From Sphagnum magellanicum (Eukaryota > Streptophyta > Sphagnopsida > Sphagnales > Sphagnaceae): 64,000 nucleotides of DNA. The stretch's first letter is position 1; each line of letters begins with the position of its first letter. The notes beneath the pieces were generated by a model, which did not search any database, was not told where the DNA came from, and was given only the letters and a program-made list of their open reading frames with translations. The stretch is taken from NCBI GenBank assembly GCA_021904315.1, contig CM038915.1:7564001-7628000 (forward strand), written 5' to 3'. The translations under genes and the position numbers were made by a program. This document shows positions 27,731-49,775 of the stretch, one piece after another.

Positions 27731-30700
27731 CCGTGGTGCACAAAGTGGGTGGCGTGCTCCGACAGAGGCTGGCTTGATGGGGTAATAAGAAGATCGTCGA
27801 GAGCAGAGGGGTCGCGTGAAGGAGGAGTCAGATGTACTGTCTCAAAACACTTCTTCTGTTGTCCAGTTATGTCGTCGAGAGTCGAATATCAATTTTGAAG
27901 TCGTCAGATGTGTTCGCCATTTCTATCAAGTGTTGAAGAGGAGTGACGAGGTGTGAATTGCATCATCAGGTAGTCTCAGTCAGTCACAAGTTTGCAGCAC
28001 AAAAGACTTGTAAGAAGATTAGTAGAGGAGCGTCCTGAGAGAGAGAGAGAGTCGGGGAAATAGACCCTGAACACGGGGGAGATCATGGCTAGTGCTTTTC
28101 CGTGTTGTTGTCGTTCGAAGGTGCTCAAGGGGAAAGAGACGATAAAAGCTGATTTTCTTTGTTTCTTGTGTTGTTGAAGGAGGAGATGGCTTCTTCTTTA
28201 CTGATCTGCACCTGGTCCTGTCCAAGACTGACAGAAGAAGTCGAGAAGTACTTAGCCTGAAGAAGAACCGTGGCGCTGGTCAGTCAAGGTCTTGACAGAG
28301 TAAGTGCTTGTGTCGTCGCTCAGCGTGATGCGGTGAAGCTTGTACTTGTGAAGCAAAAGCCACGATTGAAGGAAGGAGTGGTGTGGAGACTGAAGTTCTT
28401 CGGCGGGTGAGGAAGAGAAAACGTTGCTCAAGGCTACAACAACTCCGTGAATAACCGATCAACTGATCTGTAGGGTTGTTGCGGCGGGGGAAGGGAGAGG
28501 AGTTTTCGAGAGCAGATAAAACCTGAAGGCGAAGAAGACGCTGCGGCCTGCGACCTGCGGCCAAGAGACGCCCGGGGAGAGAAGAATCGAGAGGCTCGAT
28601 GACTTGATATAGAACTTGAACTTTCACTCCGGTAGCTGCAATGGCTATGCATCCTCGTGCACGAAGATGCTGCGTGGGATGGTAGGCTCGGCTCTTGAGC
28701 GCATTGTATCGATGCTCTCCAAGTGTTGACAGTTCTTGCAGAAACATACAACGTTGTGAGTTCCGAGCTGAGAACAAAAAGCTTGGAGCGACGCTATCTA
28801 GAACCACAAGTTCCAGCAGACTCTTAGCGCAGGCAGGGTCTGTACAAGGAAGAAACTTAGTTACTAGACAAACTAGACAGGAAAAAAATCTCAACAAAAA
28901 AAACAACAATGATAAGCACCTCAGGAGGAAATGGAGGAGACTAGACAGTCAGGGAAAATTTCCAGAATGAAAGAAGTCTCCAAATGCGAAGGTGGTGGCA
29001 GCTGAGTTATGCCACATCTAACTCAGTAAGGACATGAGTATACTGGCGTTTTTGATAGGGGACCAGGAATCCATGAAGGCAGAAAACAAATTTCTGTCTT
29101 CTCATTCTCCCATTACATGAGTGCAGTCCTCACTGCTGCCATTTGTTGTCTGTGATGCATTCCTGCAACTTTGCTGCTAGCATTCTGCAGCAATGGGTTC
29201 AATGGTATCTTGACAACTGAATTCCACAAAGGTATGTCAATTTCAGCTTCATGAATGTTGCAGTTTATTCTCACATCACTGGAATTGCAAGTCTCCCTTG
29301 AAGGGACTCGTTCATTGAAATTCAACACATCTCTGTTGGATACCTCTAGGAAAGTTAGTCCATTGCAAAAACCATAATAATAATGTGCATGCATTTTGAG
29401 AGTTTGAGCAGCTTGTAGATGCTGTATGGGCACTGTAGCCTTGTTGCCCAGTGCTTGCCTATGTCCTTTGTAGTCTGTTTGCAAACATCCCACATGGTGG
29501 TTACAAGGATTGATCTATAACTGTATCAACAGCATCTACATGAACATAAAGAATTTCAGAAGAAGCACTTCATGAAAGAAGCTCGAATGCCAATCAAGGC
29601 AAACATGGCACAGAAACTCATGCTTCATTCATTTTGGTCAATCAGTTTAGATCGACATCCTTGGCTGTGAAGAGCCTTAACAGAGACAGCCATTTTCTTG
29701 CACCCAGGTGGCTTGACAAGATGTTTGAAGATGTTTCTTGGATCCTGATGCAAAAATAGCCACCATTTGTTTTGTAGCTGCTTTATATCCTTTTTTCTCT
29801 GAGTTTATGTGTACTCCTCCAATGGCATCACCATGTTTCTTTATGCCAAAACTGGTTATCAAATTGAGACTAATGTATTTTGGTCATGGTACTGCAGAAT
29901 AACTGGCAGAAATAGGCATCTCCTTGTTCTAAGGGACATTGAGAATCAATGCAACATCTGGAGGAGCACAATGGGAGACGATTAGCCAGTGCTGATTGAT
30001 TCATGAGTGTGGAGGAGGGAATAAAAAAAAGCCAATGCAACACTGCATAGATCTCTTCTGTAGTGAAATAAGCAAGCACTTTCTGGTGGTTGGGCATCTC
30101 TTTCTCCTTCACTTGCTTATTCTTCTCTCACTTCCCCCTGTGCAGTTGCAATCACATCATCCATCATTTGCCTTAGCACATAGGGGGGAAGTCTGAGATG
30201 CATGGTGCGCACTGCACTGACTTGAATAGCCAGTGAGGTTGAATCCTGCCTCATGTGGAGCCAGTCTATGGAGAAATTCAAATTTGTTGCTGGCAAATCT
30301 ACAGTGGATGTATCAAGTGCTCTTGCTCTACAGGAGGTTGCAGCATTGGGGAACACTGACTTACACCACTTACACTAACACAAAGAGCTTATTTGTGTTG
30401 GACACAGAGAAGCCTCACCAAGAACAGCAGAAGTCATCTGTAGGTTCAATGAAAACCTGTTTTTGACTGTGCCAAATATTGTGCTAGTGAAGATGACATC
30501 CCAAGAATTCACCAAAAGAGGTCCACTGTTGAAGTCATAACCATCCAGAGTTTCTAAGAACATGGTTGCAACCTCGTCCAAAACTTCCAGATAAGCACTG
30601 GAAGGTTCCTTTCATGCCCAAAAAGCTGTTGGGCATTGATAAGGTGCCATTGATTGAACTCAAATGCTCGAGAAGTCACCTGGCACAACTGGCAGCTCAA

Positions 30701-30955
30701 TCTTTGTAGAGTCTTGAGTGTTGTACTCAGGGAATCCCTGAGCATTACGAAGTTGCAAAGTAGGCATTCCTCTTCACAGCATGCCACTCATCCTGATTAC
30801 CATAAAAGTATTTCACAGGTCCTCCTTGCTTGAGCCATTTGCTAGATTGCTCTTATCCAGTAGTACAGTTTGAAATCAGATCCTGGAGTTCTGATCCACT
30901 TTGAAATATTTCAGAAGTCTGGGAACTAATTGTTCTCAAGACTTCTGTCCTTGGC

Positions 30956-30975
30956 GTGTTCTCTCTCCTCTGTCA
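30956..30975 (+). promoter_or_regulatory. miR156-complementary site in the SPL 5' leader
   Basis: The 20-base string GTGTTCTCTCTCCTCTGTCA lies 97 bases upstream of the SPL start codon. The common SPL target is GTGCTCTCTCTCTTCTGTCA, so only two positions differ. Against canonical miR156 (known sequence UGACAGAAGAGAGUGAGCAC) I count one G:U pair (miRNA position 17), the U:U mismatch seen in most true targets (position 14), and one A:C mismatch at position 8. It is not in the SPL coding frame, because in-frame stops at 30982 and 31015 separate it from the ATG. Known miR156 sites in SPL genes lie in the coding part or the 3' UTR, so a leader site would be unusual. Whether it is transcribed and cleaved is unknown, and the seed-side mismatch weakens it. 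Confidence 0.5.
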
Positions 30976-31071
30976 AAGTGCTGAATTATTGTTTTGGATT
31001 GCCGACGGCTGATCTAGAATTCTAAGTTCACCAAGATTTATACTGCAATTTCCTTCTCCCTGGTCTGTGGG

Positions 31072-34000
31072 ATGAACTCTTCTGAAAATCAGCAAGGTGA
31101 CCCCAACTGGGCACTGGTGAACTGGGACCACCCAGCTGCTATTTCCAGCCTTGATCAAGCCACACGTGAGTACCCAGCCAACCGCTCGGAGTGGGACTGG
31201 GATCCAATGACTCTGGCACAACACCATGGAAGTGGAGGCCCCAACGATTGCAGTGATGGAGACAGCAAAAATCATCTTACTCATGCAGGTCAGACCCAAG
31301 CATGCACAAAGATGGGTAGTTCTCAGGTCAACAGTTTGTTTTTCTCATGTTTGGTGGAATATGACAATGAATGCCAAATTCTAGCATAGACATGAAATCA
31401 AGTAGCTTAAAGTGATCTGGCATTTGCCTCATCATGTATGATTTCTCAATCTGTGAGGTTCAGGGTGCAAGAGGACCCAACTGGTACCTTATATGTAGGC
31501 TATGTTGCCATGAGTGGTAGCTAACATCATGACTGAATCTACTTATTGCTTCTGGTAATTTGACTGAAACTTAGTTTACTGTATAACTGTTTGCCCGAAA
31601 TTCTGGGCAGATACATATTCCAACCTTGACCCACTGTCAGGAGCTGATGAAGTAAGTGGGAAGCCATGGCACCTAGTCACTCCTATTCATGATGAAGGTG
31701 ATGGTCTGATACTTTGTGAGTGGCACTCATAAGGTTATGACTGCACTCATTCTTCTCATGTTTGTTTTTCTATTTCTGGAACTGACAAAAATGCTTACCT
31801 TCAAGTGTTTTTTGTGGATTTTTCTTTCTCTGCAATCTCATAGATGCAATTTCTCAATCTGTGGATGCTTCAGGCACAATATCAAACCTGCGGTCATACA
31901 ACATGCTTTCAGGTGGGCTTCAACCCAATTTCACACAGACTTCAATGGGGATATACAATTCAGTTGGAGTCCGGAACTATGGAGCTCTTGATACATCAGG
32001 GAACCTTCCTATAACATCAACAATCCATAATGTCCTTGGCACATCAGGCATTCCAGGGCTTGCAGCCACTGGTGGTTCTGGGCTTCATGGTGACATTCGA
32101 AGCTCTTTCCATGACCAGCGGCGAGAGTTCTTTGCAAGCATGCAGCAGGATCTTCATATGGTGAAGAGAGAGGATGTAAGTCACTGCTGCTATACAGGTC
32201 TTTGAACAAAAGGGGCGGGGATGAGGACCCAACAAAATGGGTCACCATCCTGGTCTCATGTTGTGTTCATGCACAGTTCAGCTGAACAAGCCAAATCAAT
32301 CCCATATTAGTTGTTTTATGTCCATCCACTAATTCTGACTCCTCAAGCCAAAGCCCAACAGGGATTACTTTCTCTTTACTGTGTGACAAGATAGACTATT
32401 GTACGTGCTGTACTAGCAGTTATTCTTATTGGAGTTTTACTCTTGCTCAGCTGCTTTGTGGAGCTTTGGTGGGTTTAAGTCACTGTGCCTGGAAGAACTG
32501 CATCCAGAAATTAAAGATTGCTAAATTCTACATACTTCTGAGATCTACTAGCACATAATGTTCTGGACAGAACCTTAATGATGTGCTTGCAAATACCTTT
32601 TTTTTGGGTTCGCATCTCTTTGACATGCTGCAAAGTTTCTGGGTTTCTGAAGTCCAGTGAGATCTCTGCAGATAAGTGATGGCCATGGTGCTCGCCTAGG
32701 ACTCAACCTTGGTGTACGCACCTACTTCTCCATGGAAGACACTGTTGCAGGGCGACCAGGGAAAAGACACCGAGCAGCTTCCCCTGGGTCACAGGTCCCC
32801 ATTTGCCAGGCAGAGGGTTGCAAAGCTGATCTCAGCACAGCCAAGCCCTACCATCGTCGCCATAAAGTGTGTGATCTTCACTCAAAGGCCCCCAGTGTTG
32901 TGATTGCTGGTCAAACTCAGAGGTTCTGCCAGCAGTGCAGCAGGTATTTTGTCATAACCAATTATTACAGCTTGGTTCTAATTGTACAGTTTATTCCTGT
33001 AGACTGGTGTCTTGGTTCTCTGAGTGGTCTGCTGCCAATAACAGTTAGTTTTACATATGTTAATTTATAGCTAGCAGTTATGCCTTTTGAGTTCCAAGGA
33101 CATGACCAACTATCTGCACTGGTTTATTACTAGCACAGATCAGTACATCTCAGTGTATTGTATGCTTGGTTTTGAAAAGGATTTGGTTGTGTGTTGTGGC
33201 TGCACATGGTTCTCCTTATGAACAGATTCCACTTTCTAGTTGAGTTCGATGAGGGGAAACGGAGCTGTAGGAAGCGGCTAGCAGACCACAATAGACGACG
33301 CCGCAAGCCACAGCCCAGTGCTGTGAACTGTGATATGACAGATGCATGTCTTGGGATGAGGGGCGCAGATGAATTGTCAGTTTCTCATGCCAATGGTGAG
33401 TGAAGTTCTTGCCAGCACACATTTTCTCCTCATGTCAATCCTGCTCTTCTCAGCTGATGATGCTGATTTGTGTGGTGATTTTGAAAGCACAATGTACCTT
33501 GAACCATTTTACATGTCTCCACAACCGTTTCTGACATTTGATCTACTAGCAGACCCAAAATCAATGCTCTTGCACTTGAAAAAGTGTGGCTCTCCAAGTT
33601 CCACCTCACTTGAAGACTCTGATGATCGGCCTGGATCTGCTGGAAATAACCTGCAATTGCACACGTCTGCTGCACCAGTTGGAAGGGCTGCTGGGGAGGA
33701 CCATTTCTCTAGTCAGACTGGGATGCAGATGAGTTCCAAGCCCATGAGGGTCTCAGAGGCACATGCTAAGTTACTACCTGCTATGTCACACTCCCCACCA
33801 GCCCCTCTAATGCTACATACTGGAAAGCACCGGCTGCCAATGGTGTCAGGGATAGTGAACTACTCCCAGGATGCCACTGGGTACCAACAATATTTGCAGG
33901 TACATAATTAGGTCAATGGTGGAATTAGGCAAAATCTAAATTAGTGTCTGTGTTCTTGTTCTGGATTGAGCTTGATGAAGAATTTTTTTTGGTTATTTGT

Positions 34001-35058
34001 AGCATTTGTTTCAAGCCGTATACCACCACATGTGGCACCAGCCTGATTGCCTTCTCACATATCTCCTCTTCCCATTCTGGTTGCAGGGTGTTAAGACAGG
34101 CCAGTCTGGCCCAAGCCTTTCTCTTTCTTCCATGGGAGGGCAAGGTCACCAAACTGGGACAAATGGACAGCAAATTCCTGGTCAGTGTTACAATGGGATG
34201 GATGTACATGGTTCATGGTTAAGGACCATTCCCTCACGGGGGTCAGATCTGGAGCAGGTACTGGGAAGACCAGGAGGTCTAAATCTCCAGCGTCTTTTCT
34301 CCACTGACTCCAAAACTCACCAGTCTCCTCAGAGTGCCACTTCAGCTACAGCAAACTCAAACTCTCAGGTCTTTAGAACTGGGCTCCATTCCCAAAAACC
34401 AAGTCCTTTTTTGGTGCAATGCCTTATGTTTAGTCCATACAGCTATCATAAGTTTGTGCAATTTGAACCTTTACATTCCTTTGTTTATTCTGTTCACAAG
34501 CACCTTTCTTGAATAGTACTCAAGAAAAGTCAAAATGACTGAAGAAATTAAAGTATTAGCTGACTTCTTATTCTCAGAAATGGATCATAATGTTTGTGAA
34601 CATCTGGTTTTGATAGTTGGTTACATTGGTTGCAGGATCCTGATGCCCATGTGTTTTCAGCAAATGATCAGAACCTTCTGCCGCTGCAGACATCATCTGG
34701 AGACATAGCCAACTCAGAATGGATGCTTGGGATTTCGACAGGCGAACAAAATCCCAGTGACAACCGGAGTCATTTTACCCCTGAGTCATCCCTCAATAAT
34801 CTATCACAAAGTGGTGAATTAGAAGGTCAGCAGATGCTGGAATTGCTTGAAACTTCAACTCTCCGAGCTGGAGAGGGTGAAAATCCTGGTGGCTCTGGAA
34901 ATGAGTTTTTGCACAATACAGGGACTGAATCTGGTGGGTACCATGGAACCCGAACTCTTGGTAGTGTTGGGAAACCTGATTTGAAGTACCCACAGCTCCA
35001 TGCACCCAGAGCATATGGGTCATCCCCTATCTATGATTCACGTCACAATCTTTTGTAA
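31072..35058 (+). CDS. SQUAMOSA promoter-binding-protein-like (SBP-box) transcription factor, SPL8-like motif
   Basis: Eight coding exons: 31072-31288, 31611-31697, 31844-32175, 32672-32943, 33226-33395, 33454-33899, 34087-34368 and 34636-35058. All introns are GT-AG, phases agree, and the total of 2229 nt gives 742 residues ending in TAA. The SBP domain covers about residues 255-332. Zinc site 1 is C257, C262, C279, H282; zinc site 2 is C298, C301, H305, C317. The overlapping nuclear signal is [13 protein letters not shown]. The intron after QQCSR splits the domain at R303, the position conserved in plant SPL genes. [12 protein letters not shown] (220-231) before the domain is like Arabidopsis SPL8. 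The N-terminus has an acidic/aromatic patch EWDWDPMTL, and the rest is Ser/Gln-rich and presumably disordered. The family binds GTAC cores and controls phase change and reproductive development. The start was chosen because it is the first ATG after in-frame stops. The fifth intron is only 58 bp. Confidence 0.93.
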
Positions 35059-41996: not shown

Positions 41997-43637
41997 TTAT
42001 TGTTCTCGCTGAGAGCGAGAGTGACGGCGAATGTGCAAAAGGTCCCGAACCCAGTCATTATTTTGTTGCAAGTTTTGTTCTATCCTTTGCAATTCTTCTA
42101 CAATTGTGTCAAATGGTGGCCTCTCTTTCAGTTTTGATGACCAGCACTTGTGAATCAATTCACACATACCTGGAGGATAGGTCTTGACTCTCATCATCTC
42201 TGGCCTCCGGTTTTCCTCTGCCACAAGTCTTGCAGCTTCATAGGCTTCATCCTCTTCAAATGGAGCAACGCCTTCCATCATCTCATACAGAATCATGGCA
42301 AACGAAAAAACATCCACACTCTTATCGTACTTCTCATGTCTAAAAACCTCAGGCGCCATGTACCTGTAGCTGCCTGTCTCTCCCGTCATCTTATACACAT
42401 CATGCAAGTGCTTCATATCGATCAGCTTGCTGAGTCCAAAGTCGCCAACCTTGAGCTCCTGCGCATCATCGAAAATGAGATTGCGCGGCTTCAGGTCGCG
42501 ATGGATGATGACATTGGGGCCGCCATGGAGATAACACATGCCTCGAGCAATATCCAAGGAGTATTTCACAGCAAGAAGCGGCGGCAACGACGATTCTTTC
42601 CTCCTCCTCGACTTGAACACCGCATGCAAATCTCCCCCTGCAAGATACTCCGTGACCAGCATGAGAGGAGGCCGCAACGTGACAGCTCCCAGGAACTGCA
42701 CAATGTTAGGATGCCTAACCTTGATCATAAACTCCACCTCGTGCTGGAAATCTTTCATCACCGATCGATTCTTGGACAAGGACTGTCGTACAGTTTTCAC
42801 AGCCACTGGAGTACCTCTCCAGGTGGCCTTCCTGATCTCCCCGAACGATCCTTTGCCGATGAGAACGCTATGCTCCAAGTCGATTTCCGAGGGAATAATC
42901 TCCCAGTCCCCATTTTGCGGCAATGGCGGAGCCAGCACTACTTTCCTCTCATGATCTCCCACCGCTTCTCCCCCGTAATCCTTCAGCAGCTTCACCATCT
43001 CCATGTGCCCGGACGCCAAGGCATCAGCCCGCGGAGAATTACCCCACCGATCTCGAACATTAACGGAAGCACCCTAACAAGGCAAGAACCACAAATTGAC
43101 GACCACTCATGTAGCAGCAATTCCGCCCAAACATTTGCGAAAAAGAAACGATAATCAATGTTATGCCCCTTGAAATTCATGACTTGTAAAGCAGCTTGCT
43201 GCCATCATCATCATCTCAAGGATATTGTTGTTGATTAAGCATCTGATCTACTTACTTACTTATTTACCCTGCAGCAACAAGAAAAAAGGTCCTATGTCAG
43301 AGGCTTTCCGTTAGGTTGCACAACACATTGTGTGTAACAAGGCGCTATGTCAATGGCTTTCCGTTAGCGTGCACAGCACATTGCGTGTAATTGCCTTCTG
43401 AAAAGAGACGACCCTTACCTGCATCAGTAGGATCCGCGCTGCACTCTGACAGTCGAATAAGGCAGCGACATGAAGCGGGGTGCGTTGATCGTAGTCCACT
43501 GCATTCATAAGCGTCTTGTCGGAACTGAGCAGCTGACGCATGCTACCTAAATCCTGGTTTCGCACCGCCCATTGCAGCTTCGACACCTGCGCCCTGTCCA
43601 CCATCGCTCCTCGATTGTTCTCACTTTCCCTCCTCAC
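41997..43637 (-). CDS. Ankyrin-repeat Raf-like protein kinase, VIK/ILK type
   Basis: Two coding exons on the minus strand, 43637-43419 (73 codons) and 43073-41997 (358 codons plus stop), joined by a 345-bp GT-AG phase-0 intron, give 431 residues. The N-terminal third holds ankyrin repeats (DYDQRTPLHVAALF; then GASVNVRDRWGNSPRADA across the splice, and GHMEMVKLLKDYGGE). The kinase domain starts after GDWEI. The P-loop is GKGSFG (146-151), the ATP lysine K166 in VAVK, the catalytic loop HRDLKPRN (264-271), DFG at 284 and APE at 313-315. All key residues are present, so it should be active. Architecture, length and the strings RHPNIVQFLGAVT and HDVYKMTGETGSYRYMAPE match the plant group-C Raf-like MAPKKKs that include Arabidopsis VIK, a kinase linked to VH1/BRL2 signalling and phosphorylation of a vacuolar sugar transporter. 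A second ATG at codon 12 could be the real start. Function here is inferred from the family. Confidence 0.93.
43292..43390 (-). repeat. 53-bp tandem duplication inside the kinase intron
   Basis: CTATGTCAGAGGCTTTCCGT at 43292 recurs as CTATGTCAATGGCTTTCCGT at 43345. Both copies end in GCACA(A/G)CACATTG(T/C)GTGTAA. It lies wholly within the intron and does not touch either splice site. Confidence 0.8.
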
Positions 43638-48569: not shown

Positions 48570-49775
48570 TTGTTAAACCTTGGTCATCATGTGCATACAA
48601 AGCCTACATTTGAATCTACAAGTGAGATGGAGTCTTGCTCTTTATATGATGACATAAGAATTAATAAACTTATGCTTGAAAGGATGAACGCACTAATTCT
48701 ACATAGTTACAGACCATCGTGTGTTGCTAATTTTCTTTTGAGTCAAGATCTAGGTGACTAGGTGAAGGCTAGGTCAACAACTTGGTTTTTTCAGTATGAC
48801 AATAAGCAATGGATTGAGCATTTTCAAGTTAGTAGGCCTTTCGTGAGACAATTAATAGAGAAATTGAAGCACAAGATGGAGAAGAAAAAAGATACCAAAT
48901 ACAAATGTGTTGTTCTAGTGAACATCAAGGTGACATGTTCATTGTACAAGCTTGTGCATGTAGCTAAATATTTGCAATGTAGTGAACATTTCATAATTAG
49001 AAAGTCCACAATTCATTTGGTCTTGCACAAATTTGTAGATGCCATGAACAAAATTTTCAAAAACCAAGTTCGATGGGTTGAAGGAAATAATTTGTTGCAT
49101 GTGATGGAAGGCATCAAAGAGCTATCAAACTTGCCAAGTATCCAAGGGGCAATTGATGTTATGCAAATTCATATTCAAAAGCTAAAGGTCATTTTTGCAG
49201 GTGATTATTATACCTTCAAATCCAAGGCATATTCTATGCAATTGCAAGCAATTGTTGATCATAAGAAACGATTTTTGGACATTTTTGTTTGCATGCATGG
49301 TTCAATGAACAATTCAAAAATGTTGCGTTTACTTTCAATTTACCAAAAGGCTACACTAGGAGATCTTTTCCATGAAATTTTTTTGCATCATGGCATCAAA
49401 CCCTACATAATTGGGGATAAAGGATACCTACTGCTACCATGGCTAATGGTATTTCACAAACAAAATGCAATTTGACATTCTATGCTACAAGCATTGTACA
49501 ATAGACAATTATTTTGTACAAGAGTTGTAGTTGAAAATAATTTTGATATATTGAAGAAAACCTTCAAGGAACTGTTGATCAAATCAAACTTAAATGTCTT
49601 ATTCTTTCCAGATGTGGTTGTTTGTTGTTACATGCTCCATAACATGATTTTGAGTGATAAAGGTATTGACATTGACAAGTTGATGCTCCATTTGGAACCA
49701 GAAAATATGCTAAAGATTAATAAAAGGTGTGAGGAGGAAAGACTTTTGATCAAAGAGTATGAAATGATGAGGTGA
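48570..49775 (+). pseudogene. PIF/Harbinger transposase (HARBI1-type), nearly whole, two in-frame stops
   Basis: A single plus-strand frame of 402 codons is open apart from a TAG at 48759 and a TGA at 49473. It reads as a Harbinger (DDE_4) transposase. A helix-turn-helix part (FQVSRPFVRQLIEKL, then YLQCSEHFIIRKSTIHLVLH) precedes the catalytic core. The first aspartate is in IQGAIDVMQIHI, YTFKSKAYSMQLQAIVDHKK follows, and the final glutamate is in VVVENNFDILKKTF. The second catalytic position, normally GSxHD, reads GSMNNSK here, so the aspartate is lost. YIIGDKGYLLLPWLM and CCYMLHNMI are further family hallmarks. It is a dead but fairly young copy. Its presumed partner gene faces it at 50250-51000. 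Terminal repeats were not identified. Confidence 0.85.

Follow-up and report, generated by a model that had tools for sequence, protein, structure and literature searches.

The 20-mer GTGTTCTCTCTCCTCTGTCA in the 5′ leader of a Group 1 (SPL8-type) SPL gene is probably a genuine miR156-responsive element, kept by purifying selection in six gene copies since before their duplications. The site lies at 30956-30975 on the plus strand of the window, by which we mean the whole stretch of 64,000 nucleotides that was analyzed (C9:7564001-7628000; gene copies are named here by contig). It has two differences from the common SPL target GTGCTCTCTCTCTTCTGTCA and is the sole match to that target at ≤3 mismatches in the window; dinucleotide-preserving shuffles gave such a match in 0 of 100 cases. 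The SPL ATG is at 31072, and 96 nt separate the end of the site from it in the window gene. Because the open frame containing this ATG starts only at 31018, an in-frame stop separates the site from the ATG, and the site is outside the coding frame. Among the frames listed, no AUG frame runs across the site in this copy. The initial annotation had described a miR156-like 20-mer with two differences that was situated upstream of the ATG and outside the coding frame, and we confirmed both statements.

The window gene was the best match of the SBP family search of the genome, and its joined exon peptide contains an SBP domain (PF03110, E 2.1e-33). A 13-aa RTYF (SPL8-type) motif precedes this domain, which bears out the earlier claim that the gene carries an SPL8-like motif. 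PMC9179412 describes for Group 1 a 13-aa motif resembling RIGLNLGGRTYFS that stands ahead of the SBP domain. Both the SBP domain and a motif of this kind were found in the window gene, and its assignment to Group 1 is by motif and not by tree. The features of the gene and its leader are collected in Table 1. Elsewhere in the window, positions 41997-43073 (minus strand) hold part of a protein kinase gene (PF07714), with an N-terminal end that looked ankyrin-like by eye, and positions 48762-49475 (plus strand) hold a transposase fragment (DDE_Tnp_4 / Plant_tran).

Table 1. Features of the SPL gene and its leader, in window coordinates.
Feature	Position	Strand	Basis or remark
Element common with the C19 leader (38/48 nt)	30061..30108	+	just upstream of predicted acceptor; probably leader-intron end
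Inferred last leader exon segment, holding the site	30146..31071	+	predicted 3′ splice site to start codon
Conserved block TGGYGTGYTYTCTCTCYTCTGTCAA	30952..30976	+	unanchored leader comparison, blastn between leaders; C1 departs at two places
miR156-type target site GTGTTCTCTCTCCTCTGTCA	30956..30975	+	pattern match, pairing score, 16/20 columns invariant in six paralogs
Predicted slicing point, if any	between 30965 and 30966	+	position within site
SPL start codon	31072..31074	+	N-terminus similar among paralogs
Exon part: RTYF motif and first part of SBP domain	32693..32944	+	family search, PF03110
Exon part: end of SBP domain	33227..33307	+	family search
Open frame, probable last coding exon, ending at stop	34600..35058	+	inferred from open frame

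The SBP family search covered a genome of 438,994,042 bases and returned 38 exon matches, from which 30 loci were cut out. Twenty loci (L009-L028, about 3 kb each) were inspected for an SBP domain, an RTYF motif and a leader site; in L019, L027 and L028 no domain was readable by pattern, and weak matches on C4 and at C6:23790342 were left out. Six genes with the RTYF motif were found, on C9 (the window gene), C6, C16, C19, C1 and C12, and every one of them has a leader site upstream of its ATG. The distance from the start of the site to the ATG is 116 nt in C9, 117 nt in C6, 257 nt in C16, 106 nt in C19, 119 nt in C1 and 118 nt in C12. The C9 and C12 copies share the sequence GTGTTCTCTCTCCTCTGTCA; the others read ATGTTCTCTCTCCTCTGTCA (C1), GTGTTCTCTCTCTTCTGTCA (C6), GTGCTCTCTCTCCTCTGTCA (C16) and GTGTTTTCTCTCTTCTGTCA (C19). 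Across the six paralogs only positions 1, 4, 6 and 13 vary, with the remaining 16 of 20 columns invariant. Variation at positions 4 and 6 is between C and T opposite a miRNA G, so pairing is kept there (G:U). No site at ≤3 mismatches was detected in four SBP loci of the LKLGG type (L017 and L022-L024) or in two divergent ones (L025 and L026), and no genome-wide site match fell within 300 kb of these six loci. The site had been proposed to be a relocated or independently gained element of this particular gene. Its position in the leader holds, whereas its description as a single-gene element does not, since it is common to all six Group 1 copies. As a separate observation, C1:6423499 and C12:6390328 are identical at all of the roughly 59 synonymous sites of the SBP exon, yet have a Ka of 0.043. 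The leaders of these two copies are only 89% identical, which is odd beside the zero synonymous difference, and C1 also has the weakest site.

The site appears to be older than the split of the C9, C6, C12 and C1 copies from the C16 and C19 copies. Ks of the SBP exon was at most 0.44 among the first four and 0.69 for C16 versus C19. Between the two sets, where the values rest on about 60 synonymous sites of this exon, pS was 0.66-0.84 and Ks was at least 1.55, being not computable in three of the eight pairs. Synonymous sites between the sets are thus near or at saturation. Where PMC9946827 treats genome history, it describes two whole-genome duplications in Sphagnum divinum (Ks peaks of 0.406 and 0.643; 102-122 and 189-247 Ma), along with ancestral sets of chromosomes (6, 7, 9, 12 and 16, 17, 19). 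Provided that contigs and chromosomes share their numbering, C9, C6 and C12 would belong to the first of these sets, C16 and C19 to the second and C1 to neither. The pS and Ks values between our two sets of copies indicate that their split probably predates both duplications.

In ungapped windows anchored at the site (−250 to +89), in which indels depress the identities of the flanks, the site was 0.91 identical between the sets; the next best value was 0.33 and the mean was 0.245. When 1.5 kb of leader was compared without anchoring, the site block was the best ungapped match in seven of the eight between-set comparisons, and in each of those seven none of 40 shuffles reached its score. In the eighth comparison (C9-C19) another element, 48 nt in length, outscored the site. 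A blastn comparison of the C16 and C19 leaders gave two non-repeat blocks, with repeats judged by eye: the site (−18 to +21) and a block near the predicted acceptor. Across the paralogs of this genome, the leader site has probably been kept by purifying selection. Far upstream of the ATG, window positions 29027-29121 hold a further noncoding block of 93-95 nt, with 88-90% identity to its counterparts in the C6 and C12 genes.

A potential source of the cognate miRNA is present in the same genome. Three MIR156 loci contain the canonical UGACAGAAGAGAGUGAGCAC, and their hairpins pair 19, 19 and 20 of 20 bases. Two of the hairpins had folding z values of −8.74 and −6.87; at gathering score, Rfam gave no match for the three loci. 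We scored pairing with penalties doubled at miRNA positions 2-13. With this scheme miR156 scored 1.5 on C6, 2.0 on C19, 3.0 on C16, 3.5 on both C9 and C12, and 4.5 on C1, with scores of 1.0 and 2.0 on Group 2 coding sites. The usual cut-off for plant targets is a score of ≤4. Five of the six leaders fall within it, including the window copy (3.5), and C1 (4.5) lies above it. None of 5000 shuffled miRNAs reached the observed mean of 3.0, the lowest shuffled mean being 6.8, and no shuffled miRNA of that sample had more than two leaders at ≤4.5. With a bulge allowed, miR156 also outscored the miR529 and miR535 forms in all six leaders, and both were rejected as partners because of their worse scores. 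For miR529a the C6 leader scored 3.0, and C16 and C19 each scored 4.0. Two results support the initial reading of a miR156-type site in an SPL8-like 5′ leader: all six Group 1 paralogs found have the site, and miR156 fits it better than do shuffled miRNAs, miR529 or miR535. This support applies to the putative site itself, not to an effect on expression. We also observed opposite-strand pairs of near-miR529 sequences (C1:31511690/31511792, C1:9121160/9121227 and C2:24752339/24752402) and a cluster at C5:4997636-4998221. The close opposite-strand spacing of the pairs is as would be expected of MIR529 hairpins, making them MIR529-like.

Matches to the site elsewhere in the genome were counted with repeats taken as lower bounds. 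At ≤1 mismatch there were five matches, the window's included, and all were Group 1 SPL leaders. Exactly two mismatches gave seven further matches, which were the C19 leader, two Group 2 SPL coding sites and four others. At ≤3 mismatches we obtained 75 matches versus 74 for the reversed pattern, so the total at this stringency is at chance level. A search from the miRNA side at ≤1 mismatch yielded 12 matches versus 0 for the control. These were the three MIR156 loci, two Group 1 leaders (C6 and C16) and seven Group 2 sites, of which five are in genes and two in remnants.

Five of the six leaders have a predicted 3′ splice site. Acceptor-like sites are followed by TNGCAATCAY in C9 (−810), C6 (−865) and C12 (−819), and by TAGTCATG in C16 (−343) and C19 (−270); a pattern scan of the C1 leader found no acceptor-like match of either kind. 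The 48-nt element adjoins the acceptor-like sequences of C9 and C19 on their upstream side. These acceptor-like sequences are probably the end of a leader intron, and reading them in this way places the site and the ATG in one exon. In none of the six copies did a pattern scan, which weak acceptors would escape, find an acceptor-like AG between the site and the ATG, and on this ground we rejected a splice that removes the site. Within its exon, the site is more open than at least 85% of the 20-mers in five of the six leaders, with the exon start in C1 being guessed; the openness of the C19 site is average for its exon. Rfam at gathering score gave no match in the window or in the five paralog loci.

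The weakness pointed out at the outset was an A:C mismatch at miRNA position 8. This mismatch is real, but it is not peculiar to the window gene: C stands opposite miRNA A8 in C9, C12, C16 and C1, and pairing at positions 2-13 is full in C6 and C19. Since four of the six copies have the mismatch in common, damage to a single gene does not explain it. By hand count, it is slightly more parsimonious to assume an ancestral C and two changes to T (in C6 and C19) than the opposite, which is a weak indication of the direction of change. Duplex energies were −24.3 to −28.8 kcal/mol for the A:C copies, −30.6 kcal/mol for C6 and −28.7 kcal/mol for C19. Genome matches that were neither SPL nor MIR156 provided 59 candidate loci for a miRNA gene with G at position 8. 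Twenty of these were picked by eye, most of them with an intact end on the miRNA 5′ side, and no such gene was present among the 20; the best paired 15 of 20 bases versus 19-20 for MIR156. On the antisense strand, the C16 leader site paired 18 of 20 bases in a loose structure with a span of 26, and the other five sites paired 7-12 bases, or 0 in the case of C6. We rejected the C16 fold as a MIR gene because its sequence belongs to an SPL leader and no similar fold occurs in the five remaining copies.

Four alternatives to a miR156-responsive element were weighed against these results. The true partner might be another small RNA, for example miR529 or an unseen variant of miR156 that carries G at position 8. 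Such a partner is suggested by the C opposite position 8 in four of six copies, by the MIR529-like pairs in the genome and by the miR529a scores on C6, C16 and C19. We nevertheless regard it as unlikely, as miR156 has the better score in all six leaders and the 20 fetched of the 59 candidate matches were without a MIR-like hairpin. The block could instead be a conserved DNA element, such as a promoter or enhancer, that merely resembles the miR156 complement. Other noncoding stretches nearby are indeed conserved, for example the 93-95 nt common with C6 and C12, and we deduce rather than observe transcription of the site. However, the fit to miR156 extends over the whole 20 nt and is equaled on the six leaders by none of the 5000 shuffled miRNAs, and the site is 106-257 nt before the ATG, preceded in five of six copies by a matching acceptor predicted in the leader. 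A DNA element therefore seems improbable.

Chance resemblance in a CT-rich leader, a caution raised in the initial annotation, finds some footing in the CT/GA repeats of the upstream region and in the parity of the ≤3-mismatch matches with those of the reversed pattern. It fails to account for a site that all six paralogs found possess, that occurs at ≤1 mismatch nowhere else in the genome search and that has been kept across near-saturated divergence; as far as paralogs can refute it, chance is refuted, and we consider it very improbable. Hardly any credence is due to a conserved uORF whose peptide the site happens to encode. A short AUG frame does span the site in C6, C1 and C12, but it reads ACSLSSV in C6 and FSLLCQ in C12 and C1, and no AUG frame is listed over the site in C9, C16 and C19. 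We rejected a conserved uORF peptide because the reading frames differ among the copies.

If the site is a miR156-responsive element as we favor, AGO1 carrying miR156 from the three MIR156 loci would bind the leader 96 nt before the ATG and lower SPL protein output. In C6 and C19, with full pairing at positions 2-13, slicing of the leader would be expected, which would remove the cap. In C9, C12, C16 and C1, with A:C at position 8, slicing would be weaker and a block of the scanning ribosome would be more important; with miR156 as the guide, binding should persist in these copies though slicing is reduced. In vitro work on plant RISC is reported to show that AGO1 in a leader can block scanning. 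From the sequence we infer transcription of the leader as drawn, miR156 binding in vivo and the division between cleavage and block.

The arrangement departs from what has been described for this module. In PMC10796333, a study that included S. fallax proteins, the described miR156/529 targets are Group 2 genes and Group 1 is without miRNA control except for MpSPL1. Reports of SPL sites within coding sequence or the 3′ UTR are given in PMC6929338, PMC5945835 and PMC6704519, the last of which includes a non-canonical site in an SPL first exon. The background given in the initial annotation, that SPL8 is usually described as not targeted by miR156 and that known SPL sites are confined to coding sequence or the 3′ UTR, agrees with these sources; MpSPL1 is the target of a liverwort-specific miRNA. 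A search of open-licence literature, which was a weak test, found no published report of an SPL 5′ leader site.

Like the miR156/miR529-SPL module, the Sphagnum system combines this miRNA family, a 20-nt target core and an SBP-domain target; the window copy has the expected complementarity (3.5) and MIR156 genes occur in the same genome. Unlike that module as described, which acts on Group 2 through a coding or 3′ UTR site, the target here is Group 1 and the site is in the 5′ leader. The leader site is best explained as working like the miR156-SPL module, with these two described features absent. As published, the pair Mpo-MR-13-MpSPL1 of Marchantia is similar in that a miRNA acts on a bryophyte SPL8-clade gene, and differs in that the miRNA is liverwort-specific and not miR156. 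The miR399-PHO2 pair resembles our case in placing the target sites of a plant miRNA within a 5′ UTR and is unlike it in gene, in miRNA and in having five putative sites versus one, according to the portion of PMC10319397 concerned with it.

Our results suggest that the SPL8-type branch is under miR156 control in this peat moss. A selected miR156 leader site in every Group 1 copy found would extend a very old plant miRNA module to a second SPL clade, through a class of site, the 5′ leader, that is without report for SPLs in the open-licence literature searched. A more speculative and rather doubtful extension is that leader control of the SPL8 clade is an old moss trait, possibly one of early land plants; that one miRNA governs neighboring Group 1 genes through the leader and Group 2 genes through the coding region; that the position-8 mismatch tunes the response to a scanning block over slicing; and that liverworts swapped miR156 for MR-13 on Group 1. 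The leader site is under no protein-coding constraint, so its natural variants reveal the mismatches that selection allows in a miR156 site. Scans restricted to coding and 3′ sequences would overlook leader sites.

Five Group 2-type SBP genes of the same genome carry a coding ALSLLS site; allowing up to 7 mismatches to the sites tried revealed none in a sixth, C2:36223869. Group 1 and Group 2 SPLs lie near one another in convergent orientation at C9:7596804/7642483 (46 kb), C16:2173469/2201533 (28 kb) and C19:7137559/7154524 (17 kb), and at C6:11909516/11971040 a Group 2 remnant lies 61 kb from the Group 1 SPL on the same strand. In hornworts, AaSPL1 and AaSPL2 bear consecutive gene numbers in the gene names given in PMC10796333. 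Two Group 2 remnants, L048 (C6:11971040) and L049 (C7:10356067), retain ALSLLS together with an intact miR156 site, and a simple pattern found no SBP domain in 9.5 kb at either locus; they could serve as miR156 decoys if transcribed. Finally, the Group 2 SPL gene L021 (C16:2201533), whose coding sequence contains a miR156 site, has in addition the sequence IGLKLGRQTYF, which looks like a diverged Group 1 motif.
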